DNA from: Gammaproteobacteria bacterium
Lineage (GTDB): Bacteria > Pseudomonadota > Gammaproteobacteria > Pseudomonadales > Azotimanducaceae
Reading direction: 5' to 3'
Length of the DNA stretch: 53,469 nt
Assembly (NCBI GenBank): GCA_026705345.1
Contig: JAPPAV010000119.1
Coordinates: forward strand, 1-53,469
Positions 3,939-29,327 of the stretch are shown here, piece by piece. Below the pieces are notes generated by a model. The model worked only from the letters and a program-made list of their open reading frames with translations, was not told the DNA's origin and did not search any database. The first letter of the stretch is position 1. Each line of letters begins with the position of its first letter. The position numbers and the translations under genes were made by a program.

Positions 3939-3993
3939 GGGCGACCCTTGTGGTCGCCCGTTCGACAAACGGGCGGGACAAGCCCGTCCCTAC
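3935..3993. repeat. REP/BIME-like element, two inverted hairpins
   Basis: The left hairpin has head GTAG, stem GGGCGACC, loop CTTGT and stem GGTCGCCC. The right hairpin has stem GGGCGGG, loop ACAAG, stem CCCGTCC and tail CTAC. The two arms are inverted copies of one another, as in a bacterial interspersed mosaic element. The TAG of the GTAG head is the stop codon of the preceding sulfatase. Confidence 0.85.
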
Positions 3994-4016
3994 CGTTCCG
4001 TTGTTCCCCGCCCGTT

Positions 4017-4034
4017 CCCCACATCCATGTGGGG
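4017..4034. other. Perfect inverted repeat between two REP-like elements
   Basis: CCCCACAT and ATGTGGGG are perfect complements separated by CC. It lies between the REP element at 3935 and the single hairpin at 4050. There is no T-tract, so a simple terminator reading is weak. Confidence 0.4.
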
Positions 4035-4049
4035 TGGCGATACGGGCTC

Positions 4050-4074
4050 GTAGGGGCGATGCTTGTCATCGCCC
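4050..4074. repeat. REP-like single hairpin
   Basis: GTAG head, stem GGGCGATG, loop CTTGT, stem CATCGCCC. Relative to the copy at 3935 both sides of the stem have changed together (ACC/GGT to ATG/CAT), which keeps the pairing. Confidence 0.8.
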
Positions 4075-4136
4075 GCTGTTGGGCACCGAACCATGCGGAG
4101 TTCGCGCGGCGAACCCTGCAACAAGGAGCTGCTGTC

Positions 4137-8257: not shown

Positions 8258-9541
8258 ATGGCGCTCGAACTCGGCGTGATAGCGGATGACCTCACCGGCG
8301 GGATGATGGTCGCGAGCCTGCTGGAGCGGGAGGGTGTCCGGTGTCCCCTGGTCACCTCCGCGGAGGCGCTTGGCCGTCTCGATGCCCAGAGCGATGCGGT
8401 CGTGGTGGGCAAAAAGCTCCGCCTGATCCCCGCCACGGATGCCCGCAGAGAAGTGAGCGCGATCGGGCGTGCGCTTCGGGCCATCGACACGAAACGCATC
8501 TACTACAAGTACTGTGCGACGTTCGATTGCACCGACGAGGGCAACATCGGACCCGCCGCCGAGGCGCTCATGGCGGTGACGGGTGGCGACCGGGTGATAT
8601 TCGCGCCCGCCTTCCCGGAATACAACGTCACGGTGTTCCAGGGCCGTCTGTTCGTGGGCGACAGGCTGCTGTCCGAGTCGTTCAAGCAGTACGACCCCGT
8701 GACGCCGATGACCAATGCCAACCTCATGCAGGTTCTTAAGCCGCAGATGACCGAACCGGTAGGGGTGATTCCCCACCGAGTACTGCATCGTGGTTTGGAG
8801 GCCGCCCGGGACTACGTGGACGCCCAGATTGCGTCGGGCACCCGGGCGTTCGTGATCGATTCCGTCGACGACGACGACGTCACACGGGTCGCCGAGCTCG
8901 TCAACGACTGGGCCGTGACCACGGGTGGCGATGCGTTGCCTGGTTTCCTCGCGCGCCAATGGCTGCCGGCTGATCATCCTCCCGGAGACCGGACGGTGCT
9001 GCCCGCGGCGCCCGGACACGAGGCAGTCATTGCCGGCAGCTGTGCGCCGCCGACGCTTAGGCAGCTCGATGATTTCGAGACCCGCCACCCGGTATTCCGC
9101 ATCGATCTGGTGAGATCGGACCATGGGCTGCTCGATGAGATCCGAAGCTGGGCGGAAGAGCACGTTCCCTTGGGTCCCGTGGCCGTCAGCACGTCGGCGG
9201 ATGTCGCCGGCGTCGAACGCGCCCAAGATGCGCTCGGGAAGGATGGCGCAGCGGCACGAGCAGATCGTCTGCTAGGGGAGGTTGCGAAGATTCTCTACGA
9301 CCTCGGCGTCCGCAAAATCGTCGTTGCCGGTGGCGAGACGAGCGGGCAGGTGTTTGCCGCTCTCGGTATCCACCAGGTCGAGGTGGGTTCCTTCGACGAC
9401 CTGTCGGGCGGCTACTGTTTCAGCCACGCGCCGGGACCGCTCGCCATGGTGGTCAAGGCGGGAGGGTTGGGGAATGCGACGTTCTTCGAGTATGCGCTTG
9501 AACGCATGAGACGATCCGAACTGAACGTGATGCCTAGCTAA
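8258..9541 (+). CDS. otnK: Four-carbon acid sugar kinase (DUF1537/OtnK family), copy 1
   Basis: This 427-residue protein matches the two-domain DUF1537 kinase family. The N-terminal acid-sugar-binding domain begins with LGVIADDLTGG (residues 5-15) and contains YYKYCATFDCT and GNIGPAAEALM. The C-terminal nucleotide-binding domain carries KIVVAGGETSG and GGYCFSHAPG. Characterised members phosphorylate 3-oxo-tetronate (OtnK) or D-threonate (DtnK), giving the 4-phosphate. The immediate downstream class II aldolase is the partner expected of OtnK, which favours the 3-oxo-tetronate assignment. A paralogue lies at 20083. Confidence 0.9.
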   Translation: MALELGVIADDLTGGMMVASLLEREGVRCPLVTSAEALGRLDAQSDAVVVGKKLRLIPATDARREVSAIGRALRAIDTKRIYYKYCATFDCTDEGNIGPAAEALMAVTGGDRVIFAPAFPEYNVTVFQGRLFVGDRLLSESFKQYDPVTPMTNANLMQVLKPQMTEPVGVIPHRVLHRGLEAARDYVDAQIASGTRAFVIDSVDDDDVTRVAELVNDWAVTTGGDALPGFLARQWLPADHPPGDRTVLPAAPGHEAVIAGSCAPPTLRQLDDFETRHPVFRIDLVRSDHGLLDEIRSWAEEHVPLGPVAVSTSADVAGVERAQDALGKDGAAARADRLLGEVAKILYDLGVRKIVVAGGETSGQVFAALGIHQVEVGSFDDLSGGYCFSHAPGPLAMVVKAGGLGNATFFEYALERMRRSELNVMPS

Positions 9542-9604: not shown

Positions 9605-10252
9605 GTGAACGACGAAAAAGCAGTGCGGGAAGAGATCACGGCGTGCTACCGCTATTCGGCGGGTCTCGGATTGAACGAGCTGTCGTCCGGCAACCTAAGC
9701 TGTCGTTTCGAGGACGGCATGCTGATTTCGCCAAGCGGGGCGTCCGAGGCGAACATCGCGCCGGAACGCATCGTGCGGGTTTCACTTGACGGGGACTGGG
9801 AGGGCGACGTCAAGCCGTCGTCCGAGTGGCGGATGCACGCGGAGATCTACCGGCAGCACGAACGGGCGCAGGCGGTGGTGCATACGCACTCGGACCATTG
9901 CGTGGCGCTTTCCTGTCACAACGAGCCGCTGCCGGGCTTTCACTACCTGGTGGGGTCGTTCGGCGGCTATGATGTGCCGTGTGTGCCGTACTCGACCTTC
10001 GGCACGGAGACACTCGCCCAGGATGCGGCATCTGCCTTGAAGGAACGCAACGCGTGTCTCCTCGGCAATCACGGCATGATCTGTCGGGCGGGAAACCTGA
10101 AGGCAGCCGTCGAGCTGGCCCAGCGGCTCGAGATCATGTGCCGGCAGTATCTGCTCGCCCGTCAGTACGGCGAGCCCGACCGCTTGACCAGCGCCCAGTG
10201 GGACGAGTTCTTCGACCGCGCCCGCAAAGTGAGCTACGGGCGCTACATCTGA
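9605..10252 (+). CDS. otnC: Class II aldolase, OtnC-like 3-oxo-tetronate 4-phosphate decarboxylase, copy 1
   Basis: This 215-residue cytoplasmic zinc enzyme belongs to the class II aldolase/adducin family. The metal site is clear: Glu74 (PSSEWRMH), His93 and His95 (VVHTHSDH) and His156 (GNHGMI), almost the same numbering as L-fuculose-phosphate aldolase. In the OtnK/OtnC pathway this protein decarboxylates 3-oxo-tetronate 4-phosphate to dihydroxyacetone phosphate. GTG 9605 is the start; the upstream ribosome site is weak. It follows the kinase by 63 bases. A paralogue with the same four ligands follows the second kinase at 21381. Confidence 0.9.
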   Translation: MNDEKAVREEITACYRYSAGLGLNELSSGNLSCRFEDGMLISPSGASEANIAPERIVRVSLDGDWEGDVKPSSEWRMHAEIYRQHERAQAVVHTHSDHCVALSCHNEPLPGFHYLVGSFGGYDVPCVPYSTFGTETLAQDAASALKERNACLLGNHGMICRAGNLKAAVELAQRLEIMCRQYLLARQYGEPDRLTSAQWDEFFDRARKVSYGRYI

Positions 10253-11224: not shown

Positions 11225-11238
11225 GGAGAGGCAGAGAA

Positions 11239-15800: not shown

Positions 15801-16691
15801 CTACGGTGCCGCAAGCCGCAGCGACTCCACGTGGTGGTCGAACCAGATGTCGCGGTAACGGTCGATGATGGGTTTCTTGGCGTGTCCGTGCCCCTCGATC
15901 TCGAGGTACGTGTGGTCCACGCCGGCGTCCAATAGAGCGCCGTGGAAGTCGCGGATGGTCGGAAGGTGGCCCGTGTCCTGCGTCCCGCACCAGATCTGGA
16001 TGCGTAGCTTGCCCTTGATGCCGGCGAGGTTCTTCCTGAGAAGTTCGAACGCGTCGTTGTCGATGTAGGCCTGCTTGTCGGGACCCAGGTAGTTGTTGGG
16101 GTACGTGTCCGGCTTGGTGGGGTCGAAGTTCTCGGCGGTCCGGGGTACGTTGCCGGCGAAGTTGAACAGCGAACAGAACAGGGTCGGGTATTTCATCGCG
16201 AGTCGGGTCGCGCCGCGGCCGCCCATGCTGTGTCCTTCGATGCATCGGCCCTTGCGATCGGCGATCGTGCGATAGTTGCCGTCTATGTGTGGAATCAACT
16301 CGCGGATGATCAGGGTCTCGCCCAGGAAGCGCCCGTCGTGGGAGTCCTTGAAGAAGGTACGCTTGCCGCCGTTGGGCATGACCGCGATCATCGGTGGCCA
16401 ACGCCCGCCGCGTATTCCCGCATCGAGGACCGCGACCTCGTCGAAGCCGTGTAGTTCGTTGCCGTTGGCGCCATGCAGGTTGTAGATCACCGGGTAGCGC
16501 CCGTCGGCGTTGGTTTCGTAGCCGGGCGGGAGGTAGATGCAGTACCCCACGTCGGTTTCGTGCCCCTCGGAGTGGAACGTCCGATGTGCTACCCCGCGCG
16601 GCAAAGCGCCGGGGTTGGGCTTGTTGACCCAGACGGCGGAAGGGCCTTGTGACAGGGCGGACTCTGGTGGCTTCGGTGTGTCGGCACTCAT
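15801..16691 (-). CDS. Alpha/beta hydrolase, putative esterase (esterase D/feruloyl esterase-like)
   Basis: This 296-residue protein has the fold and motifs of the putative-esterase family. The nucleophile elbow is GHSMGG, the oxyanion strand region is YPVIYNLHGANG, and the C-terminal WCGTQDTGH and IEGHGH segments carry the probable acid and His. No signal peptide is evident, so it is probably cytoplasmic. ATG 16691 is chosen because the homologous region starts soon after; an in-frame start at 16736 would overlap the divergent gene. Its start is only 11 bases from that of the YejA-like gene. Confidence 0.88.
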   Translation of the reverse strand: MSADTPKPPESALSQGPSAVWVNKPNPGALPRGVAHRTFHSEGHETDVGYCIYLPPGYETNADGRYPVIYNLHGANGNELHGFDEVAVLDAGIRGGRWPPMIAVMPNGGKRTFFKDSHDGRFLGETLIIRELIPHIDGNYRTIADRKGRCIEGHSMGGRGATRLAMKYPTLFCSLFNFAGNVPRTAENFDPTKPDTYPNNYLGPDKQAYIDNDAFELLRKNLAGIKGKLRIQIWCGTQDTGHLPTIRDFHGALLDAGVDHTYLEIEGHGHAKKPIIDRYRDIWFDHHVESLRLAAP

Positions 16692-16702
16692 GGCTGGGAA
16701 GA

Positions 16703-18526
16703 ATGATAGACCGGCGCGCGGCGACACTCGCCTCACTTCTTCTGGCGTCCATGTGTCTCGCCGAACAACCGCCGTACCAGCACGGCATTTCCCTGTTGCA
16801 CGAGTTGAAGTACCCCGCCGACTTCCCGCACTTCGACTACGCCAACCCGTCGGCGCCGAAAGGCGGCAGCCTGACCCTCTCGACGACCTGGCCGGTCCGA
16901 AATTTCTCGGGCGCCTGGGGCACCGGCGTTTCCAATGCCAGCGGCTTGGAGCGAACCATGGACCGGTTGTTCGTCCGCTCGGCAGACGAGCCCTCGGCCC
17001 TGTACGGTCTTCTGGTGGACGGCGTGGCGCTTTCCGAAGACAGGAAGTCGCTCTACCTCCGGTTGCACGAGGCGGCCCGCTGGCACGACGGCGTGCCCGT
17101 CACGACCCGGGATGTGAGCTTCTCCTACGACGTGATGGAGGACACGTCGCTGGCTGGAAAGGTCTACCTGCGTTCCTGGATCGAGTCGTTCGAGGTCGTG
17201 AACGACCGGGAACTGGTGATTCATCACCGCGACGTCTTCACCCATTCGAACCTGCTGGCATTGACCACGTTTCCCATGCGCCCGGCGCACTACTACGCCG
17301 ACCGGGATCCGGGACAGGTGACGTTGGAGCCGCCGCTGGTCAGTGGTCCCTATCGCATCGCCGAGTTCAGTCGCAACTACGTGGCGTACGAACGCGTCCC
17401 CGACTATTGGGCCCGCGACCTCCCCGTCAACCTCGGACGCCACAACTTCGACGCGATCCGCTACGACGTGTACCGCGATGCCACGGTGGCGAGGGAGGCA
17501 TTCCGCAAGGGACTTCTCGACATCTTTTTCGAGACCGACGTGCGCTACTGGCATACCGCATACGACACGCCGGCGCAGAACGCCCCTCGGTTGCTAAGGG
17601 ACACGCGCCGGGTCGGCAAGGCCATTGGCCAGGAGCGCGCGCTGACCTTCAATCTCAACCGCGCGATGTTCCGTGACGCACGGGTCCGCGAGGCGCTGAC
17701 GCTGGCCTTCGACTTCGAGTGGCAGAATCGCGTGTTCCACTACGACACCCAGTACCGGGCGCTGAGCTACTTCGCCGGCTCGCCGATGGCCGCCCGGGGA
17801 TTGCCCACGGAGGAAGAGATCGCGTTGCTCGCCCCGTATCGCGATCAACTACCCGAGCGCGTGTTCACCGACGTGTTCCAGCTACCCGTGTCCTTCGGGC
17901 GGGGAGCCAATCGGGCGGCGCTTCAGCGAGCCCGGCAGCTCCTGGCCGATGCCGGGTGGACGCTCGTGGATGGACGACTGGAGAATCCGGACCGGGAGCC
18001 GTTCACCTTCGAGATCGCGACCCAGAATGCCTGGGCCAAGCGGTTGTTGCTTCCGTTTGTCGATTCGCTCGCGAGTCTTGGGATCGAAGCTCGCTTGCGG
18101 CTGCTCGACAACGTTACGGCGGTCAGATTCAAGCGCGAACGCCGATTCGACATGTACTTCCGGGGTCTCGACTTCCTGAACCCGCCCCTGGCCCAGTTGG
18201 TTACCTACTTCGGTTCGGCGAACGCGGAGGCGGGGATGGGCGGCAATCTGGCGGGAATTCGCGACCCGGTCGTCGACGACCTCGTCGAACTCGCCCAGCG
18301 GGCGCCGACCATGGCGGCCGCGACGACGATCTGTCGGGCGTTGGACCGCGTGCTGCTATGGGGCTTCTATCACATTCCTCTGAACATGCCGGAGGAGGAA
18401 CGGTTCCTTTACTGGGACAAGTTCGGCCGCGCCGACGAAACCGTCGCGGCGTACGAATACCTCGATGGGGGCTTGGCGCGCGTCATCGACAGTTGGTGGA
18501 GGAGGGACGCTGGGCCCGACCACTGA
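16703..18526 (+). CDS. ABC transporter substrate-binding protein, family 5 (YejA-like)
   Basis: This is a 607-residue periplasmic binding protein of the oligopeptide/nickel (SBP_bac_5) class. A signal peptide (MIDRRAATLASLLLASMCLA) is followed by the YejA signature HGISLLHELKYP then FDYANPSAPKGG. YejA works with YejB, YejE and YejF in peptide or microcin C uptake. No permease or ATPase gene is in the window, so its transporter is elsewhere or lost. ATG 16703 starts the signal peptide; an upstream in-frame ATG at 16649 would add a non-hydrophobic extension. Confidence 0.9.
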   Translation: MIDRRAATLASLLLASMCLAEQPPYQHGISLLHELKYPADFPHFDYANPSAPKGGSLTLSTTWPVRNFSGAWGTGVSNASGLERTMDRLFVRSADEPSALYGLLVDGVALSEDRKSLYLRLHEAARWHDGVPVTTRDVSFSYDVMEDTSLAGKVYLRSWIESFEVVNDRELVIHHRDVFTHSNLLALTTFPMRPAHYYADRDPGQVTLEPPLVSGPYRIAEFSRNYVAYERVPDYWARDLPVNLGRHNFDAIRYDVYRDATVAREAFRKGLLDIFFETDVRYWHTAYDTPAQNAPRLLRDTRRVGKAIGQERALTFNLNRAMFRDARVREALTLAFDFEWQNRVFHYDTQYRALSYFAGSPMAARGLPTEEEIALLAPYRDQLPERVFTDVFQLPVSFGRGANRAALQRARQLLADAGWTLVDGRLENPDREPFTFEIATQNAWAKRLLLPFVDSLASLGIEARLRLLDNVTAVRFKRERRFDMYFRGLDFLNPPLAQLVTYFGSANAEAGMGGNLAGIRDPVVDDLVELAQRAPTMAAATTICRALDRVLLWGFYHIPLNMPEEERFLYWDKFGRADETVAAYEYLDGGLARVIDSWWRRDAGPDH

Positions 18527-18989: not shown

Positions 18990-19829
18990 TCAGAACGCTT
19001 TGTCCGTTAGCCCGACTTCGTAGGCCTCCAGTCCACTCGTCAGGACGGTATCGATCAAGGTTCGAGACCCGGCCAGGTAGTTGGAGTGGCCGCTGTAAAG
19101 GGTCGCCAGGAACCACTGGCGTGCCACAGGCCAGACGATCTGCGGAACGTGCATGTCCCGTTCGAACGTGCACGGCTGTCGGAGCCATTCGGCGATGTCG
19201 CAGAAGCGTGCGCGCCAAACAAAGTAGCTCCAACCTCGAGTGGCGAGCCGTACATCGCTGTCCCAGCCGCTGCTCCCTCCCTCCCACTGCCCGGATAGGC
19301 AGCGGTCCTTCGGGTCGGTCTCACTGGAGAGTATCCGGAACAGCCGATCGGCAACAAACGGCTCGATGTTGCATTCACTGGGGCCCCAGCTCCAGGCTTG
19401 GTCCGCACTGGCGGCGCGATAACCGTCGCTGGGCCCGCAAATCTCCCCCGAGCCGGTGTCGTGGGTCATGCGCAGTCCATTCGCCTCGGCGATTTCGGAG
19501 TTTCGAACCGGTTTCGCCCAGACGTCCGGATCGTCGTCGCCGGGGTCGGATCTCTGGCGGACCGCTCCTTCGGTCCCTTCGGCGACGATCTTCCAGAAAG
19601 GATTCGGCAGCCGGACATAGGCCTCGAACCCGACCGGCAGAAAGTCTCCCACCGTCCAGCTCCCGCCGTTGATGACTATCCCGTCCACATCCGTCTGCTC
19701 CGCCCGGCGATAGAAAGCCGGCAACTCGCTCTTGCGCATCTCCCTGCGTAGCTCTCGCTCCGCTTGCCAGAGCCGGTACCGCATGAGCAGGTGATCCTTC
19801 AATGTCATGCGCTGAGACGGGCCCGCCAT
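18990..19829 (-). CDS. Conserved-looking hypothetical protein, unrecognised
   Basis: I do not recognise this 279-residue protein. It is soluble, rich in Trp and charged residues, and has no signal peptide. Visible features are an N-terminal basic helix (YRLWQAERELRREMRKSE), a segment IVINGGSWTVGDFLP that looks like a beta-rich core, a region with several acidic residues (RSDPGDDDPD) and a C-terminal helical part (WPVARQWFLATLYSGHSNYL). ATG 19829 is chosen as start; the frame is open to 19907. Its length and protein-like composition argue that it is real. Confidence 0.6.
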   Translation of the reverse strand: MAGPSQRMTLKDHLLMRYRLWQAERELRREMRKSELPAFYRRAEQTDVDGIVINGGSWTVGDFLPVGFEAYVRLPNPFWKIVAEGTEGAVRQRSDPGDDDPDVWAKPVRNSEIAEANGLRMTHDTGSGEICGPSDGYRAASADQAWSWGPSECNIEPFVADRLFRILSSETDPKDRCLSGQWEGGSSGWDSDVRLATRGWSYFVWRARFCDIAEWLRQPCTFERDMHVPQIVWPVARQWFLATLYSGHSNYLAGSRTLIDTVLTSGLEAYEVGLTDKAF

Positions 19830-20082
19830 GTATACGATCGTCGACTCGTGCCGATGGGTACGCCTGCGAAAGCGCCACCAGTCGCGTCGGTATCCTCCCC
19901 GCCTCATCGCTCTCTTGTCCCCCAGCAGCGCCGACCGAGATCCATGATCGGCGCATGGCCGTCACCATTCAACGGCACTGACTTGGCATGCGGCGGCGCA
20001 TGCTCCTGCGCCTAGGCTAGACTTCCTCGCCGCAACGACCTGCTATGGCCGGACCGCGATTGCGGCCGGGAAGACCGAACCA

Positions 20083-21360
20083 ATGCTTGAACTGGGCGTG
20101 ATCGCGGACGACCTCACGGGGGGCGTGAAGGTGGCCAGCCTCCTGGAGGAGGATGGCGTTCGATGCCCGGTGGTGACCTCCGTCGAGGCGTTGGAAGCGC
20201 TCGACGACGAGGTCCAGGCCGTGGTCGTGGGGCGGAAGCTGCTATCCCGGCCCGCCGATGAAGCTGTCGCCGATGCGATCCACAGCGCCGAGTCGCTTCT
20301 CGCGCGGGGTGCGAAACAGATCTACTACAAGTACAGCGCCCTGTTTTCGTCGACGGCACGGGGCAACATCGGCCCGGTCGCCGAGGCGCTGATGGAGCTC
20401 ACCCAGACCGACCGCGTTCTGTTTTGTCCCGGGCGTCCCGAACGAGATGCCATGGTCTACCGGGGGCGGTTGTTCCTCGGCTCGAACATGCTGCACGAAA
20501 CACCCAGGCGGTTTGATCCCGTGACCCCCATGACCAACTCGAACCTGGTGGAGGTGCTGCAATCCCAGAGTCGCCTCGAGGTGGGTCTCGTGGACCACGA
20601 TACGATGCGGACGGGCAGGGCGGCCTGCGAACGCTTCCTCGCCGAGCAATCCGCAGCCGGCGTGCGGTTCTTTATTGTCGATGTCATCGATCCGCCCGAT
20701 CTCGACCGTGTCGCGGACCTCGTTCGCCATTGCCCCTTGACCACTGGGTCTGACGACCTCCCCGTCGCGCTTTCGCGTGGTTGGCCGGAACGCAACATCG
20801 CCGAGCCACGGACGTTGTTGCCCCCCGCACCGGGTCACGCCGTGGTGATCTCGGGGAGTTGTACGCCGAAGACTTCTCGTCAGTTGTCCCGGTTCGAAGG
20901 TACGCGCCCGGTGTTCCGGGTCGACCTGGTGGAAGCGGCCCGCGACGAGGGTCTCCTCGATCGGGTCGTGGAGTGGGCCCGCGGCCGGTTGGCACGGGGT
21001 CCCCTGGGTATCGCCACCACCACGGACGCCCAAGGCGTCAAGCGCGCGCAGGCGGAACTGGGTCGGGAAGGCGCCTCGGCGCTCGCTGACGACCTGCTTG
21101 GCCGGGCGTCGCGTGAACTCTACGGGCTTGGCGTGCGCAAATTCGTCGTGGCCGGCGGCGAGACCTCCGGCGCGGTGATAAAGTCGTTGGGCTTGGAGCA
21201 CCTCGAAGTCGGAGCGCACGACGATCTGCTGGGCGGATACTGTCACCGAGCCGGTGACGATCCGGTGTCGCTGGTCGTCAAGTCGGGCAGCGCCGGCGAA
21301 GACGACTTCATTGACAAGGCCCTCGAACGGATGTGGATGGCGGACGCCGCATCCGTCTGA
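20083..21360 (+). CDS. otnK: Four-carbon acid sugar kinase (DUF1537/OtnK family), copy 2
   Basis: This 425-residue paralogue of the kinase at 8258 has the same layout: LGVIADDLTGG at residues 4-14, IYYKYSALFSST and GNIGPVAEALM in the acid-sugar domain, and KFVVAGGETSG with GGYCHRAGDDP in the nucleotide domain. By family it phosphorylates a 3-oxo-tetronate or a related acid sugar. It heads a six-gene operon ending at 26045; the aldolase follows after 20 bases. Differences from copy 1 in the substrate domain suggest either a different stereoisomer or redundancy. Confidence 0.9.
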   Translation: MLELGVIADDLTGGVKVASLLEEDGVRCPVVTSVEALEALDDEVQAVVVGRKLLSRPADEAVADAIHSAESLLARGAKQIYYKYSALFSSTARGNIGPVAEALMELTQTDRVLFCPGRPERDAMVYRGRLFLGSNMLHETPRRFDPVTPMTNSNLVEVLQSQSRLEVGLVDHDTMRTGRAACERFLAEQSAAGVRFFIVDVIDPPDLDRVADLVRHCPLTTGSDDLPVALSRGWPERNIAEPRTLLPPAPGHAVVISGSCTPKTSRQLSRFEGTRPVFRVDLVEAARDEGLLDRVVEWARGRLARGPLGIATTTDAQGVKRAQAELGREGASALADDLLGRASRELYGLGVRKFVVAGGETSGAVIKSLGLEHLEVGAHDDLLGGYCHRAGDDPVSLVVKSGSAGEDDFIDKALERMWMADAASV

Positions 21361-21380
21361 TCGCGACACAGGAGACCAAA

Positions 21381-22037
21381 GTGGCAGGTACCACCGACGA
21401 AGCCGAATTGCGCGAACAGTTGGTCGCGAGCTACAAACGGGTCGAAGCCATCGGCTTAAACGAGATGTCGTCCGGCAACTTGAGCGTCCGGTTCGGCAAC
21501 GGGATGCTGATTTCCCCGAACGGTGCCCGTGCGGACACGATCACCGTGGACGCCGTCGTCGAGACGTCGTTCGACGGCCAATGGCGCGGCGCGGGGAAGC
21601 CGTCCTCCGAGTGGCGCATGCACGCGGCGATCTACGAGCAGCACGCCGATGCCCACGCCGTGGTGCATACCCATTCGGACTATTGCGTTGCCGTGGCAAG
21701 CCACCTGACGCCGTTGCCGGGATTCCACTACCTGGTCGGCGTGTTCGGCGGCGACGACGTGCCTTGCGTACCGTACTCCACCTTCGGGACACAGAGGCTC
21801 GCCGACGACGCGGCGGCGGCGCTCTGCGATCGAACGGCCTGCCTGCTCGGCAACCACGGCATGATCTGTCACGGGCCAACACTCAAGCGGGCCGTCAACC
21901 AGGCGCATCGCCTGGAGATCATGTGCCGTCAGTACGTCCTCGCGCGGCAGTTGGGCGAACCGGCGCGCCTAACGGACGCCGAGTGGCGGGAGTTCCACGG
22001 CAGGGACAAGGCGAGCATGTACGTCCAGAACGGCTGA
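21381..22037 (+). CDS. otnC: Class II aldolase, OtnC-like decarboxylase, copy 2
   Basis: This 218-residue class II aldolase/adducin protein is a paralogue of the gene at 9605. It keeps all four metal ligands: Glu77 (PSSEWRMH), His96 and His98 (VVHTHSDY) and His159 (GNHGMI). It should act on the product of the kinase encoded just upstream, giving dihydroxyacetone phosphate plus CO2 if it follows OtnC chemistry. GTG 21381 is chosen because AGGAG lies at 21370-21374; the frame is open upstream into the kinase gene. The dioxygenase gene follows after 13 bases. Confidence 0.9.
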   Translation: MAGTTDEAELREQLVASYKRVEAIGLNEMSSGNLSVRFGNGMLISPNGARADTITVDAVVETSFDGQWRGAGKPSSEWRMHAAIYEQHADAHAVVHTHSDYCVAVASHLTPLPGFHYLVGVFGGDDVPCVPYSTFGTQRLADDAAAALCDRTACLLGNHGMICHGPTLKRAVNQAHRLEIMCRQYVLARQLGEPARLTDAEWREFHGRDKASMYVQNG

Positions 22038-22050
22038 CGGGATCGAACGA

Positions 22051-23121
22051 GTGAAGCACCAGGCGGAGTTTCAAGAGCGCGTCGTCAGGTACGAGCGGCC
22101 GACGCATCACTATCTGTTTCTGATCGCCTCCGACGGGTCGATGCTGGCCCTCGACGACGTCGGTGCGCTCACGCTGTCCGACGAAGGCGACGACCGGGTG
22201 ATCTGGGATCGGACGCCGGGCGGGGTCAGGCACGTGGCAACCGGGACGGAGGTGGCGGGCAACGTCGATGCCGAGAACTGTACGTTGCGCATGGGAACGG
22301 AGGATGTGCCCTTCCGGATCGGCCACGGCCCCGAGCACCTGCCGAGCGTCTACCTCGAGCACTTGAAGCGGGAAGGCTGGGTATGCCTGACCAGTCTCTT
22401 GACGCCGGAAATCGTGGACGGCCTGCAACGGGTCGCGTGTACCGACGCCTACGAACACCTGGAGCCGAACCGCGACAGTCCCCGGGTCTGCCAGCACAGT
22501 GCGGTCGGCCAGGCCATCTGCGAACCCATATCGCTCTGGCTGATCCGGCAGTACGTGGGAACGCGGAATCTCCACCTCGGACATCCGCCGAACCCCATGT
22601 CGCTGGCCCCCTACGACGGTAAACGCACGCAGGGGTGGCATGCGGACATTCCGTATATTCCGTCGGCCGGCGGGAATCCGGTGGCGGATCGGGGCGGCCC
22701 CATCAAGGCAGTTCAGCGCAATGTCTGCGTCTCCGACTTCAGGAAAGAGAACGGCGCCACGGCGTACAAGCTGGGCTCGCATCGGGCCGAGACGAACCCG
22801 CCGCCCGAGTGGAATCCCGCACGTCACGGCGCCGATCCGGCGACGCGGCCCTATAGCGGTCCCGAGGCCGATGTGGTCGAGGCCCCCGCAGGCAGCATCG
22901 TTCTCTACGACGCGAGGACCTGGCATCGTGCGGGGTTCAACCAGACGAAGCACAAACGCGGCGCGATGCTGATGTCGTTTCAGGTCGCCGACGTCATCCC
23001 CAAGAGAGATACGAGGCCCACCTGCGGGCGACTTCACGAGAGCCCGGTCTATGAGGAACTCGACCGCCGGCAGCAGCGGGAGATCACCGAACTCCTGATG
23101 AATCAGCCCGACGCCGCGTAG
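22051..23121 (+). CDS. Phytanoyl-CoA dioxygenase (PhyH) family oxygenase, operon copy
   Basis: This is a 356-residue Fe(II)/2-oxoglutarate-type oxygenase. The first hundred residues form an extra N-terminal domain not typical of short PhyH proteins. The catalytic core follows, with His197-x-Asp199 (GWHADIPY), a distal His292 (RTWHRAGFNQ) and a nearby basic residue for 2-oxoglutarate. Such enzymes hydroxylate small molecules. Its place inside an acid-sugar operon suggests it prepares a substrate for the pathway, but no substrate can be named. GTG 22051 starts 13 bases after the aldolase stop. Confidence 0.88.
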   Translation: MKHQAEFQERVVRYERPTHHYLFLIASDGSMLALDDVGALTLSDEGDDRVIWDRTPGGVRHVATGTEVAGNVDAENCTLRMGTEDVPFRIGHGPEHLPSVYLEHLKREGWVCLTSLLTPEIVDGLQRVACTDAYEHLEPNRDSPRVCQHSAVGQAICEPISLWLIRQYVGTRNLHLGHPPNPMSLAPYDGKRTQGWHADIPYIPSAGGNPVADRGGPIKAVQRNVCVSDFRKENGATAYKLGSHRAETNPPPEWNPARHGADPATRPYSGPEADVVEAPAGSIVLYDARTWHRAGFNQTKHKRGAMLMSFQVADVIPKRDTRPTCGRLHESPVYEELDRRQQREITELLMNQPDAA

Positions 23122-23155
23122 CGCGGGCAGCCGAACACCACCCAAGAGCACCGTT

Positions 23156-24004
23156 ATGCAAGTAGGAATCATGTCGGGAACCTTCGCCCGACCGACACTC
23201 GGCGAGACGCTTGACGCGATCCTCGACCACGACATCCACCACGTTCAGTTCAACTGGGGTTCCGCCCACCCGTCCGGTCCGCTCCCCGAGGTGATCGACG
23301 CGATCTGTCCCGTGATCCGGGAAGAGACCGCCAAGCGCGACATCGTCATCGCCGCCGTGGCGGGGAATATCAACATGGCCGACACGAACCCCGAGAAACG
23401 CCAACAGGGGATCGACCGCCTGCGGATGGTGATCGGTGCCTGCGAATCCGTTGGCACGTCCGTGGTTGCGACCTGCACCGGTTCCCGCCATCCGGAGAGC
23501 ATGTGGCGGCATCATCCCGACAACGCATCGCCCGAAGCGTGGCGTGACGTCTGCGCAACCCTGGAACAGGTGTTGCCGACGGCAGAGGCGGCCGGCGTGA
23601 TGGTCGCTTTCGAACCGGAGATCAACAACGTCGCGAGCGATGCGAAGAGAAGCCGACGCCTGATCGACGAGATGGGTTCTCCGAACCTGAAGGTCGTGAT
23701 GGACGCCGCCAACATCTTCGGCAAGGACGACCTGCCGCGCATGGCGGAGGTGCTCGACGAGGCGTTCGACCTGCTCGGCGACCACGTCGCCATCGCCCAT
23801 GGCAAGGATCTCGATCACGGCGGTGACGCCGGGCACCTGGCGGCGGGTACCGGCAAGCTCGACTACGCCCGCTACGTGTCCCTGCTCTGCGGGTTGTCCT
23901 TCGATGTGCCGGTGATCCTGCACGGTCTGACCGAAGCCCAGGTGGACGACAGCGCCGGGATGCTCAGACGGCACGCGGCGGCCTATGAGGCGGCGAATCC
24001 GTGA
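23156..24004 (+). CDS. Sugar-phosphate isomerase/epimerase-like TIM barrel (hydroxypyruvate isomerase group)
   Basis: This 282-residue protein belongs to the AP-endonuclease-2-type TIM-barrel family, which includes xylose isomerase-like, hydroxypyruvate isomerase and OtnI enzymes. It has candidate metal ligands in VMVAFEPEINNV (Glu), LKVVMDAANIF (Asp), HVAIAHGKDLD (His, Asp) and a late His in VPVILHGLTE. In the acid-sugar pathway OtnI converts 2-oxo- to 3-oxo-tetronate, which is the job this neighbour could do; family membership alone does not prove it. It overlaps the next gene by four bases (GTGA). Confidence 0.85.
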   Translation: MQVGIMSGTFARPTLGETLDAILDHDIHHVQFNWGSAHPSGPLPEVIDAICPVIREETAKRDIVIAAVAGNINMADTNPEKRQQGIDRLRMVIGACESVGTSVVATCTGSRHPESMWRHHPDNASPEAWRDVCATLEQVLPTAEAAGVMVAFEPEINNVASDAKRSRRLIDEMGSPNLKVVMDAANIFGKDDLPRMAEVLDEAFDLLGDHVAIAHGKDLDHGGDAGHLAAGTGKLDYARYVSLLCGLSFDVPVILHGLTEAQVDDSAGMLRRHAAAYEAANP

Positions 24005-25248
24005 AGGCGAAGGTCGCCCTTCTCGGGTGTGGCAATCCGGCCCGGAAATGGCACTTGCCGACGCTCAGCGAGCTGTCCCGGCGCGGCGAGATCGACTTCG
24101 TCGCCTTGTGCGACATGGACGAGCGGCTTGCCACCGAGAACGGCGCGAAGTACGGCGTGCCGCACTACACCGATGTCGAGGAGATGCTCGAGAAGCACAA
24201 GGACATCCTCGTGGTGGACATCGTCACCGGCGACCCGACGCACCACCTACTCGCCGGGCTAGTCGCGGAGCACGGCAAGCACGTCATGGTGGAGAAGCCA
24301 ATGGCGCTGACCCTGCCGTGTTGCGACCACATCATCGACACCTGCCGTAGGAACGGCGTCCATTTCGAGGTGGCCGAGAACTACTTCCGGATGTCGAAAC
24401 AGCGGATGATCGTGAAACTCGTCGAAGCGGGCGTCCTCGGCGACATCGTGCGGGTCTATTTCGTCGAACCCAAGCGCCAGGTTCCATTCGAGCCGACGGT
24501 CACCCACAACGGCTTGAGCCGCCCGATCTCGGGTTTCGGTCGAACGTCGGGCATGTGCATGGACATGGGCGCGCACCGGTTGTCCCAGTTGCGGCTGTAC
24601 GTGCAGAGCGAGCCCACGCAGATCAGCGCGACCGTGCGGAAGTACATGTCGGATCCCAACCGGATCCATGAGGACTGGGCGCACGCGCTAATCGATTTCG
24701 GCAGCGGCGCGGTGGGGATCTACGAGACGTCCCGGCTCGGCGAGGCGCAGAAGTACTGCCAGATCACGGGGACGCTCGGCGGCATTTTGGACAACGACAC
24801 CTTCGGACCCGAGATCCCGTTGCGACTGCGCCTTGGCGACGATTGGGAAGACATCCCGGTCGAAACCGAACGCCGCCGGATCGACGGCGTCGATGTCCTG
24901 CAGCGCATCGTCGTCCATGCCGACACCCAGATCGTCTACGAGAATCCGTTCCGGGACTACGCCATCGACGACTGGTCGGTTGGCCATGCATCCGAGATCA
25001 TGTCGATCGCCAACGCGGCGCTCAACGACGAACCGGCGGAATATGGCATCGAAGGGCGCAAGGACGTCGAGATGGCCATGGCGATCTACGAGTCGTCCTT
25101 AAACGGCATGGCACCCGTTGCTTTGCCCTTAGCGGGGCTGACCACCTACGAGCAGATGGTGCACGAGGACTACCACGCGAAGTTCGGCCGACCGATCGGG
25201 CCTTTCTGGCAACCCTCGGCAAAGGGGGAGCGGACCGCCGTGGGCTAG
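24001..25248 (+). CDS. Gfo/Idh/MocA-family oxidoreductase
   Basis: This 415-residue NAD(P)-dependent oxidoreductase starts with the Rossmann motif VALLGCGNPA. It contains the family EKP motif (MVEKPMALT), whose Lys is catalytic, and a DMGAHRLSQLRLY segment carrying a probable catalytic His. Members oxidise or epimerise sugars, cyclitols and related polyols. Its GTG start overlaps the upstream stop by four bases, so it is translationally coupled to the isomerase. In this operon it may generate or interconvert a keto-sugar before the kinase step. Confidence 0.9.
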   Translation: MKAKVALLGCGNPARKWHLPTLSELSRRGEIDFVALCDMDERLATENGAKYGVPHYTDVEEMLEKHKDILVVDIVTGDPTHHLLAGLVAEHGKHVMVEKPMALTLPCCDHIIDTCRRNGVHFEVAENYFRMSKQRMIVKLVEAGVLGDIVRVYFVEPKRQVPFEPTVTHNGLSRPISGFGRTSGMCMDMGAHRLSQLRLYVQSEPTQISATVRKYMSDPNRIHEDWAHALIDFGSGAVGIYETSRLGEAQKYCQITGTLGGILDNDTFGPEIPLRLRLGDDWEDIPVETERRRIDGVDVLQRIVVHADTQIVYENPFRDYAIDDWSVGHASEIMSIANAALNDEPAEYGIEGRKDVEMAMAIYESSLNGMAPVALPLAGLTTYEQMVHEDYHAKFGRPIGPFWQPSAKGERTAVG

Positions 25249-25277
25249 GATGGCCCGGTTGGACTGGGAGAGTGACG

Positions 25278-26045
25278 TTGCAGCCGTTGACCGACGATCG
25301 GAAGCGGGATTTCGTCCAGAACGGCTTTCTGCATGTCGCGGATGTCGTGCCGCCTCGGCTGGTGGCCCGGGCCAGGCGCGCCATCAACAACTCCCTCGGC
25401 GCCGGGATCGACGCTGAGCAAATCGTTCGCTTCAACAACCAGACGTTCTGCCCCGAACTCGGGGACGATCCACGCTTGCTGCGCCTCGCGACGACGCCCG
25501 AGGTTTGGTCGCATGTGCGGGCCTTGCTCGGCGACCACCGGGTGGTTCGCCCGAAAGGGTGCCAGATCGCACTGCGGTTCCCGCTCCCCGAAGGCACACC
25601 GCGACAGGTCACGGGGGGACATATCGATGGTTACCACACGCCGAGAAACGGCGTGCCGGACGACGGCATTGTGCGGAGTTTCACCCTGCTGCTCGGTATC
25701 ATGCTCAGCGATGTCCCCGCGCCCTTGAGCGGGAACTTCACGGCCTTGCCGGGAACGCACCGGCGCTTGGCGCACTACTTCCGCGATCACGGTGTCAACA
25801 CCCTCGACGGCGGTAGCGTCGAGTCGCTGGGCCTGCGCCTGCCCAAACCGGTGCCGGTCACCGGCGAGGCGGGTGATATCGTTCTGGCCCACTACCAGAT
25901 GGCCCATACGGTGTCGCCGAACCTGTCCGGGGACATCCGCTACATGTGCTTCTTCCGATTGTCGGTGCGCGGTTTAGCGAGTCACCGGGTCGAGTCCATG
26001 CTCGACATCTGGCGTGACTGGCCGGCGTTGCGCCCAGCCCCGTAG
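25278..26045 (+). CDS. Phytanoyl-CoA dioxygenase (PhyH) family oxygenase, operon end
   Basis: This 255-residue Fe(II)/2-oxoglutarate oxygenase has His115-x-Asp117 (GGHIDGYH) and distal His210 (HYQMAHTVSPN), so the iron site is complete. It is shorter than the PhyH at 22051 and lacks its N-terminal domain. The start is taken as TTG 25278, which has GGGAG seven bases upstream; GTG 25272 is an alternative but too close to that site. The stop codon TAG is supplied by the GTAG head of the repeat array starting at 26042. Confidence 0.87.
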   Translation: MQPLTDDRKRDFVQNGFLHVADVVPPRLVARARRAINNSLGAGIDAEQIVRFNNQTFCPELGDDPRLLRLATTPEVWSHVRALLGDHRVVRPKGCQIALRFPLPEGTPRQVTGGHIDGYHTPRNGVPDDGIVRSFTLLLGIMLSDVPAPLSGNFTALPGTHRRLAHYFRDHGVNTLDGGSVESLGLRLPKPVPVTGEAGDIVLAHYQMAHTVSPNLSGDIRYMCFFRLSVRGLASHRVESMLDIWRDWPALRPAP

Positions 26046-26418
26046 GGGCGGGCTTGTCCCCGCCCGCGCCGGACATTGACGTTGCCGCCGGAACGGGACG
26101 GGACAAGCCCGTCCCCTACGGAATATCCCGGCACGCCCGTAGGGGCGGGGCTTGTCCCCGCCCGCGCCGGGACGTTGTCGTTGCCGCGGGAGCGGGACGG
26201 GACAAGCCCGTCCCCTACGGAATATCCCGGCACGCCCGTAGGGGCGGGGCTTGTCCCCGCCCGCGCCGGGACGTTGTCGTTGCCGCGGGAGCGGGACGGG
26301 ACAAGCCCGTCCCCTACGGAATATCCCGGCACGCCCGTAGGGGCGGGGCTTGTCCCCGCCCGCGCCGGGACGTTTGTCGTTGCCGCCGGAACGGGACGGG
26401 ACAAGCCCGTCCCCTACG
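26042..26418. repeat. Tandem array of four REP/BIME-like units
   Basis: Four near-identical units begin at 26042, 26139, 26238 and 26337, a period of 97-99 bases. Each unit has a left hairpin (head GTAG, stem GGGCGGGG, loop CTTGT, stem CCCCGCCC) and a right hairpin (stem GGGACGGG, loop ACAAG, stem CCCGTCCC, tail CTAC). The units are separated by a spacer containing GAATATCCCGG. The array exactly joins two convergent PhyH-family genes: its first GTAG gives the stop of the plus-strand gene and its last CTAC gives the stop of the minus-strand gene. It fills the whole 368-base gap. Confidence 0.93.
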
Positions 26419-27349
26419 ATCGCTCAGGTGGGGTTTCTTCTGACGCCCTCGCCTCTTCGCGCAGCCGCTGCAGTTCGGCCTGGTCCGCCTGAACCCTTTC
26501 CCAGATCGGACGGGTATGGTCGTGGGCCCCGTACGCGCTCGGCGGCATCAGCATGTCCCGCTGGTTATCGCTCAGTTCCCCGTAGCGATCGGCGTTGTAG
26601 TAGCAGGGGCTCCAGGCCACCGCGTGGGGGCAGTACTTGTAGAAGATCGTGCGTCGCTCACTGTTGCCCTTCCAGGGCACCGTGCCGTGGGCGCAGGCTT
26701 CCGTGAAGATGATCGCATCGCCAGCCTCGGCCGCCACCCGATCCACGCACTCCGGCATCTCCTCTTGGGTCTTGCTGGTCCGCCAGTCCGCCGGGAGCGG
26801 GAAGTTCACCTTGTGGCTGCCGGGTACGCAGGCGAATCCGCCATCGCCCGGTTGCACGGTGTTCAGTTCGAACGCAACCGCGACCAGGCCGTTGTAGATC
26901 CTGCCGTTGTTGTAGCGGTAGTAGCACTGACCGCCGTCCGACGGGCCGACCCGGTCCCTTTCCCCGCCGGCGCCTTGACCCCCGCCGTGCAGGAAGAGCT
27001 GCTTGAATTGACTGGCCGCGTTGTCGATCTTGATGTAGTCGTGGTCGAGTCGGTATTTCGAACCGAGCAGGGCCTCGAGATACGGCGCAATGCGGGGCAG
27101 GTCGATCAGGTCGATGTACGTACCACCCCACTCGATTAGCGATTTGGCCGAGAAGGCCCCGGATTCCCCTTCGGGATATCGGGTTCGGTCGGACCCGTAT
27201 TGCTCTTTTCTCCCGGGCGACCGCTTTCCTCCCGGCGAGCGCCGCTCTTCGAGTCGATCGGAAAGATCCGCCACCTGTGCCGGCGTCAGCACGTTCTTGA
27301 CGTGGAGGTAGCCACGCAGGTCGAACAGGTATTTCTCTTCGTCGTTCAT
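26414..27349 (-). CDS. PhyH-family protein with His-x-Gly in place of His-x-Asp
   Basis: This 311-residue protein has the PhyH fold: an N-terminal FDLRGYLHVKNVLTPAQ segment, the FACVPGSHK block and a C-terminal AHGTVPW with a following RRTIFYKY. The first iron-ligand motif, usually His-x-Asp, reads His121-Gly-Gly123 (QLFLHGGGQG). The distal His221 and nearby Arg remain. Loss of the Asp is what is seen in Fe/2-oxoglutarate halogenases, but it also occurs in uncharacterised PhyH branches, so the activity is open. ATG 27349 is preferred over TTG 27355. The TAG stop comes from the array CTAC. Confidence 0.85.
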   Translation of the reverse strand: MNDEEKYLFDLRGYLHVKNVLTPAQVADLSDRLEERRSPGGKRSPGRKEQYGSDRTRYPEGESGAFSAKSLIEWGGTYIDLIDLPRIAPYLEALLGSKYRLDHDYIKIDNAASQFKQLFLHGGGQGAGGERDRVGPSDGGQCYYRYNNGRIYNGLVAVAFELNTVQPGDGGFACVPGSHKVNFPLPADWRTSKTQEEMPECVDRVAAEAGDAIIFTEACAHGTVPWKGNSERRTIFYKYCPHAVAWSPCYYNADRYGELSDNQRDMLMPPSAYGAHDHTRPIWERVQADQAELQRLREEARASEETPPERS

Positions 27350-27471
27350 GGGCAAGTGTCGTAACGGTTCGCCTTAATCGTGTTTGAACTCGCCGCCACA
27401 ATCAACCGGACGGCGCACGGGGCGATGTAGACACTTCCCATTTTTGCCAAGACCCGTACGGACGCGCGCTC

Positions 27472-29259
27472 CTAGGCGACGTTGGAGGGAGCAATCTCCC
27501 AGGCCTCAAACGAATGCACATGGGCTTGCGCACCCCTTGAGAAAAGGCGGACGCCAACGCTATCGGCTCGCGCCGGGTAGATCCGCCGCGCAATGGCCTG
27601 CCGGCCGTTCGCGAATACCTCGACCACGGAGTGGTCAACGAAGACGCGGAGCTTCAACCGCTCGCCTTGCATCAGTTCGAGCGGCCCCGCCTCGACCGCC
27701 TTGGGTGTATCAAGCGGTCCCGACCTCCTGGTGTCGACCTTCAACAGTTGCTCCCGGGCGTCGTAGAAAATCGACGTCTCCTCCTGCGAGTCCGGGGAAA
27801 CGCAGACCTTGACGCCGTATGCCGCGTCCTCGCCGCCATCCATCTCGACACGGAGCTCGAGGCTGTTGCCGCCGACGCCGTCGATGGTCACGTCGGTATC
27901 GGCGGACAATTCGAAGGCCGTCTTCGTGAAGGCCTCCTGGCGCAGGGCCTCGATCTCGTCGGGAACATCCATCCTGAGTTGGCCATCATCCCCGAGCGAC
28001 AGGACGCGCGGCAGACTCAGGGTTCCGGACCAGCCATGCTGAGAACGTACGCCGAATTGCGGCTCATCCATGATCCAGGCCCACATGATCCGGCGGCCCT
28101 TGTCGTCAACGAGGCTCTCCGGCGCGAAGAACGAGTTGTCGACCCAGCTCATCTGCGCGTGGGACTCGGGGTGGAACTGTTCGTCCTTCCAAACGCCCAG
28201 GTAGTAGCGGCAGCCAAGACGGTGGCTGATGCACAGCAGAACGTCTCTGTCACCCAAGTTGAATAGATCGGCGCATGACACGTCCTCGTCGAGGGATACG
28301 CCTTCGACCCCGTGCGCGAACAGGTCGCCCACGTAGTTCCACTCGCCTTCCACAGCAGGCGCTTTCGCGACACCCGGGCGCCCACCGCCGAAGATCGCGT
28401 AGTAGGTGTCGCCCTCGAGCCACCCGAATGGGTCCCAAGACTTGTACCTGCCGTGGTGCAGATCGCCCTCTTCGGTCTTCGGCGTGATGGGGTTCGAGTC
28501 GAGCTTCTTCCACTCGTTCAGGTCATCGTCGAGGGCCACCGCCAAGGCGTTTCCCCGGCCCTTCTGGTGATAGCAGATCGTTGGCACACCATCCTGATTG
28601 ATGAAGCAGTTGCCGCTGTACATGCCATCGAGCAGGCGGGTGGGATGGTGGATCCAGTGGAACAGGTCGGTACTGGACACGTGGCCCCAGTGGTCTGCCT
28701 TCCTGCCGAGCCGGGTGTCCTGGAAGATGTAGAACAGGTGGTAGCGGCCCTTCCAGTAGATGGCCCCGTTCGGGTCGAAGGGCATCGCGACGCCTTCCGG
28801 AACCACGAAGTGGTAGCCGGGCCGCGCCGGGTCGCTGAGAATGCTCTCCCGAAGGCTGCGGGCGCTCTCGGCGGTCTCGTGGCCCGATCGGGATCCGGTC
28901 ACGGATTCGCATCGCCAGACGCCGTCCGGTTCCCGCTTCATCCGGATCTCGAACGCGCCGCCACCCGTCGGCGATCGCAGCGTCGCGGGATCGACGATCG
29001 CCGTGTCTTCGTCTACGGTCACCTTGGCGTCGTCCAGAACAAACCGCTTGGCGGCGTCGCGGCCCTGTTCGATCTCATCCTTGAAGTAGGCCAGCAGATC
29101 GGCTTTGGTCATGCCGGCGCTGTCGGCATAGCTCCGAGCGAAGAAAGCCACCTGGCCGTCGGCATCCCCGGCCTCGATCGCCGCGTTGTAGTTCCCGACG
29201 GCGGCCAACACCGCGTCCTCGGCACGCTTGCCTGAAGGCAGCTTCCTACTGGCGCCCAT
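27472..29259 (-). CDS. Glycoside hydrolase family 32 enzyme with N-terminal NTF2-like domain
   Basis: This 595-residue protein has two parts. Residues about 10-130 look like a SnoaL/NTF2-like (DUF4440-type) domain. From about 140 on is a GH32 five-blade propeller plus C-terminal beta-sandwich. The nucleophile Asp162 is in MPFDPNG and the transition-state stabiliser Asp276 is in SWDPFGW. The acid/base Glu of the usual ECPDxF motif is Ser328 (DVSCADLF), with Glu325 nearby. No signal peptide is seen. GH32 acts on fructans or sucrose; the missing Glu makes activity uncertain. ATG 29259 has CGGAG at good spacing. Confidence 0.88.
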   Translation of the reverse strand: MGASRKLPSGKRAEDAVLAAVGNYNAAIEAGDADGQVAFFARSYADSAGMTKADLLAYFKDEIEQGRDAAKRFVLDDAKVTVDEDTAIVDPATLRSPTGGGAFEIRMKREPDGVWRCESVTGSRSGHETAESARSLRESILSDPARPGYHFVVPEGVAMPFDPNGAIYWKGRYHLFYIFQDTRLGRKADHWGHVSSTDLFHWIHHPTRLLDGMYSGNCFINQDGVPTICYHQKGRGNALAVALDDDLNEWKKLDSNPITPKTEEGDLHHGRYKSWDPFGWLEGDTYYAIFGGGRPGVAKAPAVEGEWNYVGDLFAHGVEGVSLDEDVSCADLFNLGDRDVLLCISHRLGCRYYLGVWKDEQFHPESHAQMSWVDNSFFAPESLVDDKGRRIMWAWIMDEPQFGVRSQHGWSGTLSLPRVLSLGDDGQLRMDVPDEIEALRQEAFTKTAFELSADTDVTIDGVGGNSLELRVEMDGGEDAAYGVKVCVSPDSQEETSIFYDAREQLLKVDTRRSGPLDTPKAVEAGPLELMQGERLKLRVFVDHSVVEVFANGRQAIARRIYPARADSVGVRLFSRGAQAHVHSFEAWEIAPSNVA

Positions 29260-29327
29260 CTCCAAACTCCGAATCCATGCCCGCCGCACACTCTACAAGT
29301 GGCGTGTTAACGTCGCAGTAACCATAC

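Follow-up and report, generated by a model that had tools for sequence, protein, structure and literature searches.

A PhyH oxygenase linked to a DUF1537-family kinase and a FucA-like aldolase in a conserved gene module of one gammaproteobacterial family

Introduction

The L-fucose route uses a FucK kinase and a FucA aldolase. In another described system, L-threonate is converted through LtnD, OtnI, OtnK and OtnC to dihydroxyacetone phosphate (PMC12540250), and DUF1537 kinases take part in tetronate catabolism (Zhang et al., 2016, as cited in PMC12540250). Fe/2-oxoglutarate (Fe/2OG) enzymes also act on modified sugars: the dioxygenase SqoD opens sulfoquinovose in the sulfo-ASDO route (PMC12890257), and PHYHD1/FJS were described as PhyH-family Fe/2OG demethylases of 2'-O-methyl nucleosides (PMC12709175). 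Poribacterial sponge symbionts were reported to contain PhyH more abundantly than any other domain family, in most cases with no function assigned (PMC3909097). Here, we analyzed a stretch of 53,469 nucleotides from a gammaproteobacterial genome (assembly GCA_026705345.1, contig JAPPAV010000119.1), referred to below as the window. It carries, at 20083-26045, genes for a DUF1537-family kinase, a class II aldolase, a PhyH oxygenase (PhyH-A), a TIM-barrel enzyme, a Gfo/Idh/MocA oxidoreductase (Gfo) and a second PhyH oxygenase (PhyH-B). The kinase, aldolase, PhyH-A, TIM barrel and Gfo form a conserved module of one gammaproteobacterial family, and a solute-binding protein (SBP) encoded upstream of 20083-26045 belongs to the same set.

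The locus and its genes

The window genome comprises 5.07 Mb in 151 contigs. Its named relatives found through PhyH-A were gammaproteobacterial or Pseudomonadales metagenome-assembled genomes, and the bin names of the published near relatives presumably point to sponge metagenomes. The SBP gene and the six open reading frames (ORFs) at 20083-26045 are as follows.

16649..18526, + strand: family-5 ABC solute-binding protein (SBP_bac_5; PF00496, 179.7 bits), likely the uptake component of the module
20083..21360, + strand: DUF1537-family (OtnK-like) kinase of clade i (PF07005 and PF17042, SBD_N/NBD_C)
21381..22037, + strand: class II aldolase, FucA-like (PF00596, 158.6 bits, obtained with the longer frame that begins at 21333)
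22051..23121, + strand: PhyH-A, the linked Fe/2OG oxygenase (PF05721, 50.1 bits)
23156..24004, + strand: xylose-isomerase-like TIM barrel (AP_endonuc_2), sugar 3-epimerase-like (PF01261, 94.3 bits)
24001..25248, + strand: Gfo/Idh/MocA oxidoreductase (PF01408, 67.3 bits)
25272..26045, + strand: PhyH-B, an Fe/2OG oxygenase that adjoins the module and is not a member of it (PF05721, 38.3 bits)

The six ORFs had been assigned to these families in an initial annotation made from the sequence alone, and the Pfam searches agreed, with all six above their family cut-offs and on the + strand. With the preferred starts, the intergenic spacings along the six genes are 20, 13, 34, -4 and 23 bases; the close packing proposed in the initial annotation thus holds at the junctions of 13 and 34 bases and at the four-base overlap. 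The aldolase is probably translated from the GTG at 21381, which has an AGGAG-like site ahead of it and lies 20 bases past the kinase end, and not from 21333, an alternative start that would run into the kinase gene. PhyH-B starts at the GTG at 25272, 23 bases 3' of gfo.

Co-distribution and linkage of the module genes

A sample of 146 genomes of relatives was searched with each protein, the best few candidates per genome being scored (e.g., 8 for SBP and 14 for PhyH-A), and the presence/absence sets and linkage coordinates were transcribed by hand from the search outputs. PhyH-A was counted as orthologue-like at a score of at least 370 bits, and paralogues of 48-50% identity fall just under this threshold. 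The weakest accepted orthologue, in genome G029, shows 49% identity and has support from its position next to the aldolase.

Orthologue-like PhyH-A was found in 18 of the 146 genomes; any match to PhyH-A was found in 36, a count reached because paralogues of 38-50% identity are common. The TIM barrel was present in 19 genomes, Gfo in 18, and a kinase of at least 45% identity in 20. Orthologue-like PhyH-A, TIM barrel, Gfo and the module-type kinase were common to the same 18 genomes, which belong to four genera, and all 18 carry the aldolase, which occurs in 36 genomes in total. Kinase type was assigned by motif in 14 of the 18 (or in their named duplicates); the kinases of the rest are 79-85% identical to that of the window and were typed on that basis. 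Within the window's genus (16 genomes), 11 held PhyH-A, TIM barrel, Gfo and kinase, and 5 held none of the four. Partial sets outside the 18 were seen in G017 (a TIM barrel of 52% identity and a clade iii kinase) and in G070 (a clade ii kinase and the aldolase, without TIM barrel or Gfo). Fisher values for this co-distribution were near 1e-21 under the assumption of independent genomes; since the genomes are related, these values overstate independence, and the pattern rather than the number is the evidence.

Linkage was counted within 10 kb, on best copies only, in the 18 module genomes. TIM barrel and Gfo were linked in 16 of the 18, PhyH-A and TIM barrel in 15, aldolase and PhyH-A in 14, kinase and aldolase in 12, and kinase and PhyH-A in 11. 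In 10 of the 18, the other four genes all lay no more than 10 kb from PhyH-A, and the window order on one strand was kept in 7; a rough chance expectation of linkage is 0.4% per pair per genome. Several named loci (e.g., L040 and L053) lie on the same contigs as loci of the numbered genomes and were not recounted in the 18. The initial annotation had proposed that its grouping be judged by whether the PhyH and oxidoreductase genes also accompany the kinase and aldolase in further genomes. Both PhyH-A and Gfo are linked to that pair there, so they are not chance neighbours.

The same counts bear on an alternative explanation, in which the kinase and aldolase on one side and PhyH-A, TIM barrel, Gfo and SBP on the other serve two pathways that are favoured by the same niche and sometimes lie side by side. 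It would account for the 7 of 18 genomes in which the kinase and PhyH-A stand apart, for G009, G060 and G080, in which PhyH-A, TIM barrel and Gfo stay together and the kinase and aldolase are on other contigs, and for the 17 genomes that have the aldolase without a family kinase. The same 18 genomes nevertheless hold both sets, and the five genes gather near PhyH-A in 10 of 18 against about 0.4% expected by chance per pair per genome, which makes this explanation unlikely.

Other arrangements were also observed. Where the kinase and aldolase lie elsewhere, PhyH-A, TIM barrel and Gfo are often still clustered (L040 and L042); this cluster is not kept together in G001, G029 and G075. The aldolase of G080 adjoins a clade iii kinase and not the module kinase, and the kinase of G002 is split across two contigs. 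Around 10 of the 17 aldolase-only occurrences, the 10 examined, no family kinase was seen nearby, the neighbours being read from protein starts; the aldolase of G007 was not recovered by the gene caller in this reading. An enolase-family gene, 67% identical to that of the window, adjoins the lone aldolase in G005 and G014. These surroundings gave no pointer to a substrate.

Beyond these relatives, PhyH-A was found in a single genome of a phylum-wide sample of 398, namely the window's own. TIM-barrel homologues of 33-37% identity occurred in 5 other genomes of the 398, each beside a partial Gfo match; at L070, the one of these loci whose neighbours were read, further proteins resemble, as judged by eye, a sugar-ABC transporter, a PfkB kinase and a ribulose-phosphate epimerase, which is a different set. 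Two plasmid matches to PhyH-A were weak and partial. Four PhyH-A paralogues in the window's own genome (L044-L047, 45-48% identity) stand in differing surroundings, and tblastn of these stretches gave no match to the TIM barrel, Gfo or kinase.

The upstream solute-binding protein

Copies of the SBP with at least 55% identity were found in exactly the 18 module genomes of the 146, with at most 8 candidates scored per genome; the next best genomes reached 49, 47 and 44%. The distance from an SBP copy to a module gene is at most 2.5 kb in 14 of the 18 and at most 10.5 kb in all 18. Several genomes have more than one copy, and the nearby copy is sometimes not the one closest to that of the window. 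The SBP, although outside 20083-26045, therefore belongs to the module set and is likely its uptake component.

An enolase-superfamily cluster lies near the SBP in some relatives and was not counted as a module member; one scanned protein of this cluster, from L040, passes a galactonate dehydratase model. Sulfatase-like matches occur near module genes in several relatives. The window genome has 44 sulfatase matches in total, so nearby sulfatases were not counted as members either.

The module enzymes

The kinase scored 338 bits on the OtnK model NF043035 (NCBIfam), under the cut-off of 350, and is 35% identical to E. coli YgbK. Its motifs read DDLTGGVK for DDxTGxxD and FSST for FDST. The last aspartate of DDxTGxxD is replaced in all 27 aligned kinases of the family, by lysine in 10 and by methionine in 17; the aspartate of FDST is lost in 18/18 kinases of clades i and ii and kept in 9/9 of clade iii. 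Both are present in E. coli YgbK and in five solved DUF1537 relatives, and it is from the relatives compared here, rather than from a published definition, that the two-aspartate criterion for the OtnK type was derived. In the kinase tree, support was 82/96 for clade i, 99/99 for clade ii and 53/8 for clade iii, so that the last is poorly held together. Six kinases from outside the family but within the same order served as controls: the first aspartate was kept in all six and the second in the three whose site was seen. Five of the six have YgbJ- and YgbL-type genes as neighbours (four of these also a YgbM type), and the sixth a YgbL type alone; no match to PhyH-A or Gfo was found in the stretches of 4.3-13 kb around them. 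The kinase had initially been called OtnK-type. It is OtnK-like by its 338 bits, and by its score below 350 and the loss of the two aspartates it falls outside OtnK itself. From the motif change we predict that it would not act on 3-oxo-tetronate as OtnK does.

The aldolase, initially taken as OtnC-type, scored 106.4 bits on the OtnC model NF043034 (cut-off 250) and higher on two fucA models (172.5 and 155.5 bits); the OtnC identity was rejected. The 155.5 bits on TIGR01086 (FucA) remain below the cut-off of 400.25, so the protein is described as FucA-like and not as FucA. It is 37% identical to E. coli FucA over 194 residues and 34% identical to YgbL over 184. The residues aligned with one glutamate and three histidines of FucA, which we take to be the catalytic and metal residues, are kept. 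Four motif patterns, three of which span these FucA-site residues, were all present in 21 of 25 homologues, and each of the other four misses one.

For the TIM barrel, blastp against E. coli YgbM gave no match at E<=10, and none of its NCBIfam matches was named 2-oxo-tetronate isomerase (OtnI). A profile search returned D-tagatose 3-epimerase (E 7.6e-4). The AlphaFold model has a mean predicted local distance difference test (pLDDT) of 82.9, and the best 50 of its 1835 Foldseek matches were led by D-tagatose/psicose 3-epimerases and UlaE, with 2-hydroxy-3-keto-glucal hydratase and YcjR lower among them. The OtnI-like assignment of the initial annotation was accordingly given up, sugar 3-epimerases leading both the profile and the fold matches. 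The solved sequences nearest to Gfo are 4,5-dihydroxyphthalate dehydrogenase and DgpA1, which is not specific.

These results also bear on whether the locus might be the known L-threonate/D-erythronate pathway (LtnD-OtnI-OtnK-OtnC) with diverged enzymes and PhyH-A as an accessory. In its favour are the kinase score of 338 bits, against the cut-off of 350, and the superfamily that the aldolase shares with OtnC. No LtnD-type gene is found among the six, however; the TIM barrel is not OtnI-like, the aldolase is nearer to FucA and the kinase lacks the two conserved aspartates, while the control kinases of other families sit with YgbJ/YgbL types and have no PhyH-A or Gfo match in the 4.3-13 kb read around them. 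Taken together, this renders the tetronate pathway an improbable identity for the module.

PhyH-A has an N-terminal extension of about 95 residues and scored 50.1 bits on PF05721 against a cut-off of 22. Its iron and 2OG ligands, H197-x-D199, H292 and R303, were invariant in 11/11 sequences.

PhyH-B, an adjacent gene

The initial annotation placed two oxygenases in a six-gene operon. PhyH-A is linked to the other genes in other genomes; PhyH-B fails the same linkage test, so that five of the six genes stand and the SBP is added. PhyH-B was found in 11 of the 146 genomes (in G060 at 33% identity only), including four module-less ones (G005, G007, G010 and G014), whereas 11 of the 18 module genomes lack it. 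It lies on a contig apart from the module genes in G008, G009 and G060, and stands beside gfo in only 4 of the 18: G000, the window genome, and G002, G003 and G004, which are near relatives. Inside the genus, the presence of PhyH-B does not follow that of the module (Fisher p 0.59). At seven PhyH-B loci elsewhere no module gene was seen nearby, neighbours being read from protein starts and not by family search. With distribution and linkage independent of the module, PhyH-B was rejected as a pathway member. The window genome has 75 PhyH matches in 5.07 Mb, about 1 per 68 kb, so a PhyH neighbour such as PhyH-B is unremarkable.

Tandem direct repeats of about 99 bases lie right 3' of PhyH-B (26045-26418), with a 45-base core in four copies and inverted arms of 32-34 bases. 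A third PhyH gene follows at 26414-27355 on the - strand, opposite to the six genes, and then a gene for a GH32-type protein (27472-29289, - strand), in which an N-terminal stretch precedes the GH32 domain; among the long loci compared, these two were found in near relatives only. In a close relative, a PhyH gene stands between the SBP and kinase genes (L037:7101-7994). In the window, an ORF without Pfam match occupies 18990-19907 (- strand); a tRNA-Pro (cgg) is predicted inside it at 19609-19695, likewise on the - strand.

A paralogous kinase/aldolase locus

A separate locus, with a paralogous kinase/aldolase pair 12 kb upstream of the module, contains the following genes.

8258..9541, + strand: paralogous OtnK-like kinase of clade iii, 51% identical to the module kinase
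9605..10252, + strand: paralogous class II aldolase, 64% identical to the module aldolase
about 10430-11224 and 11230-11970 (starts assumed), + strand: two cyclase-like proteins, from the ORF listing

The paralogous kinase scored 322 bits on NF043035 and the aldolase 117.8 bits on the OtnC model, below the cut-offs of 350 and 250, respectively. The first cyclase-like protein matched PF04199 with 29 bits; the second gave a weak arylformamidase match of 28.5 bits. Both cyclases are near 7 of the 9 clade iii kinases, the window included (the same pair at L079, L081, L086, L088, L093 and L096), and are missing at L076 and L084. L088 also has a 3-hydroxyisobutyrate-dehydrogenase-like protein, 91% identical to that of the window at 3948-5063. 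The clade iii kinase/aldolase/cyclase locus is separate from the module and probably serves a sugar acid.

Proposed function of the module

The set of SBP, PhyH-A, TIM barrel, Gfo, OtnK-like kinase and FucA-like aldolase is probably carbohydrate-catabolic, with a modified sugar or sugar acid as its likely substrate. The initial annotation had already suggested a modified sugar acid as a possible substrate of the PhyH enzymes. The genomes show directly which genes are present, how they are co-distributed and how they are linked; each chemical step and the order of steps are inferred from the enzyme families. An ABC importer would bring in the modified sugar or sugar acid, and PhyH-A would oxygenate it, either removing a capping group (e.g., O-methyl) or oxidizing a carbon. 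Gfo and the TIM-barrel enzyme might then oxidize and isomerize or epimerize the product so that a ketone comes to lie next to a free CH2OH, which the kinase would phosphorylate. Cleavage by the aldolase adjacent to the ketone could yield dihydroxyacetone phosphate together with a small aldehyde; alternatively, the enzyme could decarboxylate as OtnC does, yielding dihydroxyacetone phosphate and CO2. More specifically, and more tentatively, the module may represent an undescribed oxygenase-initiated route, in which PhyH-A takes the cap off a sugar or sugar acid that is O-methylated or modified in another way, and the later steps fall to a DUF1537 kinase whose substrate pocket has changed and to a FucA-like retro-aldolase; we regard this as possible rather than probable.

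Several points weigh against the catabolic reading. Kinship among the genomes means that the true count of gains and losses is low, and module-less genomes still carry PhyH-A paralogues of 38-50% identity. Several module genomes hold more than one PhyH-A copy above 50%, of which the best alone was tallied. The separation of kinase and PhyH-A in 7 of the 18 genomes and the aldolases without a family kinase, described above, count in the same direction. The predicted structure of PhyH-A has a pLDDT of 44 and is poor outside its N-terminal domain; a fold search with it gave no match at E<=0.001, and the model was left unused. Among solved relatives of PhyH-A, kanamycin B dioxygenase comes nearest, matched over only about 85 residues (E 1.5e-4).

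That last match raises the idea of a module that is biosynthetic instead of catabolic, in which PhyH-A and Gfo would synthesize or modify a small molecule much as enzymes of aminoglycoside biosynthesis do. The match is short and weak, and PhyH-A is accompanied by an uptake protein and by a catabolic-type kinase and aldolase, which leaves a biosynthetic role highly improbable. The catabolic reading would matter beyond this locus: one PhyH subfamily is tied to a kinase, aldolase, epimerase, dehydrogenase and uptake set, which turns an open question on PhyH into a short list of assays. If true, the oxygenase-initiated route would assign a class of substrates to one branch within the large, mostly unexplained PhyH expansion of bacteria of this kind.

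Comparison with known systems

Compared with the L-fucose enzymes FucK and FucA, the module has in common a class II aldolase with FucA-like active-site residues, and differs by a DUF1537 kinase in place of the FucK type and by the extra oxygenase and Gfo enzyme. It would resemble the sulfo-ASDO route in placing an Fe/2OG dioxygenase first in the catabolism of a modified sugar, a likeness of proposed function; the downstream enzymes given for that route are different (PMC12890257). PHYHD1/FJS, which are PhyH-family Fe/2OG enzymes too, take an O-methyl group off a sugar ring and so offer, like SqoD, a precedent for the proposed first step, a likeness drawn from their description only; they act on nucleosides, and the part of that report available describes no comparable kinase/aldolase set (PMC12709175). 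In a literature search of titles and abstract openings, no DUF1537 kinase paired with a PhyH oxygenase appeared among the matches listed.

The tetronate system LtnD-OtnI-OtnK-OtnC, as outlined in PMC12540250, likewise combines in one operon a DUF1537 kinase followed by an enzyme of class II aldolase fold, and has a TIM-barrel enzyme and an oxidoreductase as their neighbours. The module differs from that outline in having no LtnD or OtnI match, a FucA-like aldolase and a kinase without the aspartates of DDxTGxxD and FDST, and it adds an Fe/2OG oxygenase and a Gfo/Idh/MocA enzyme. The operon is thus a variant of a known kinase/aldolase operon type, with a real chance of new chemistry.

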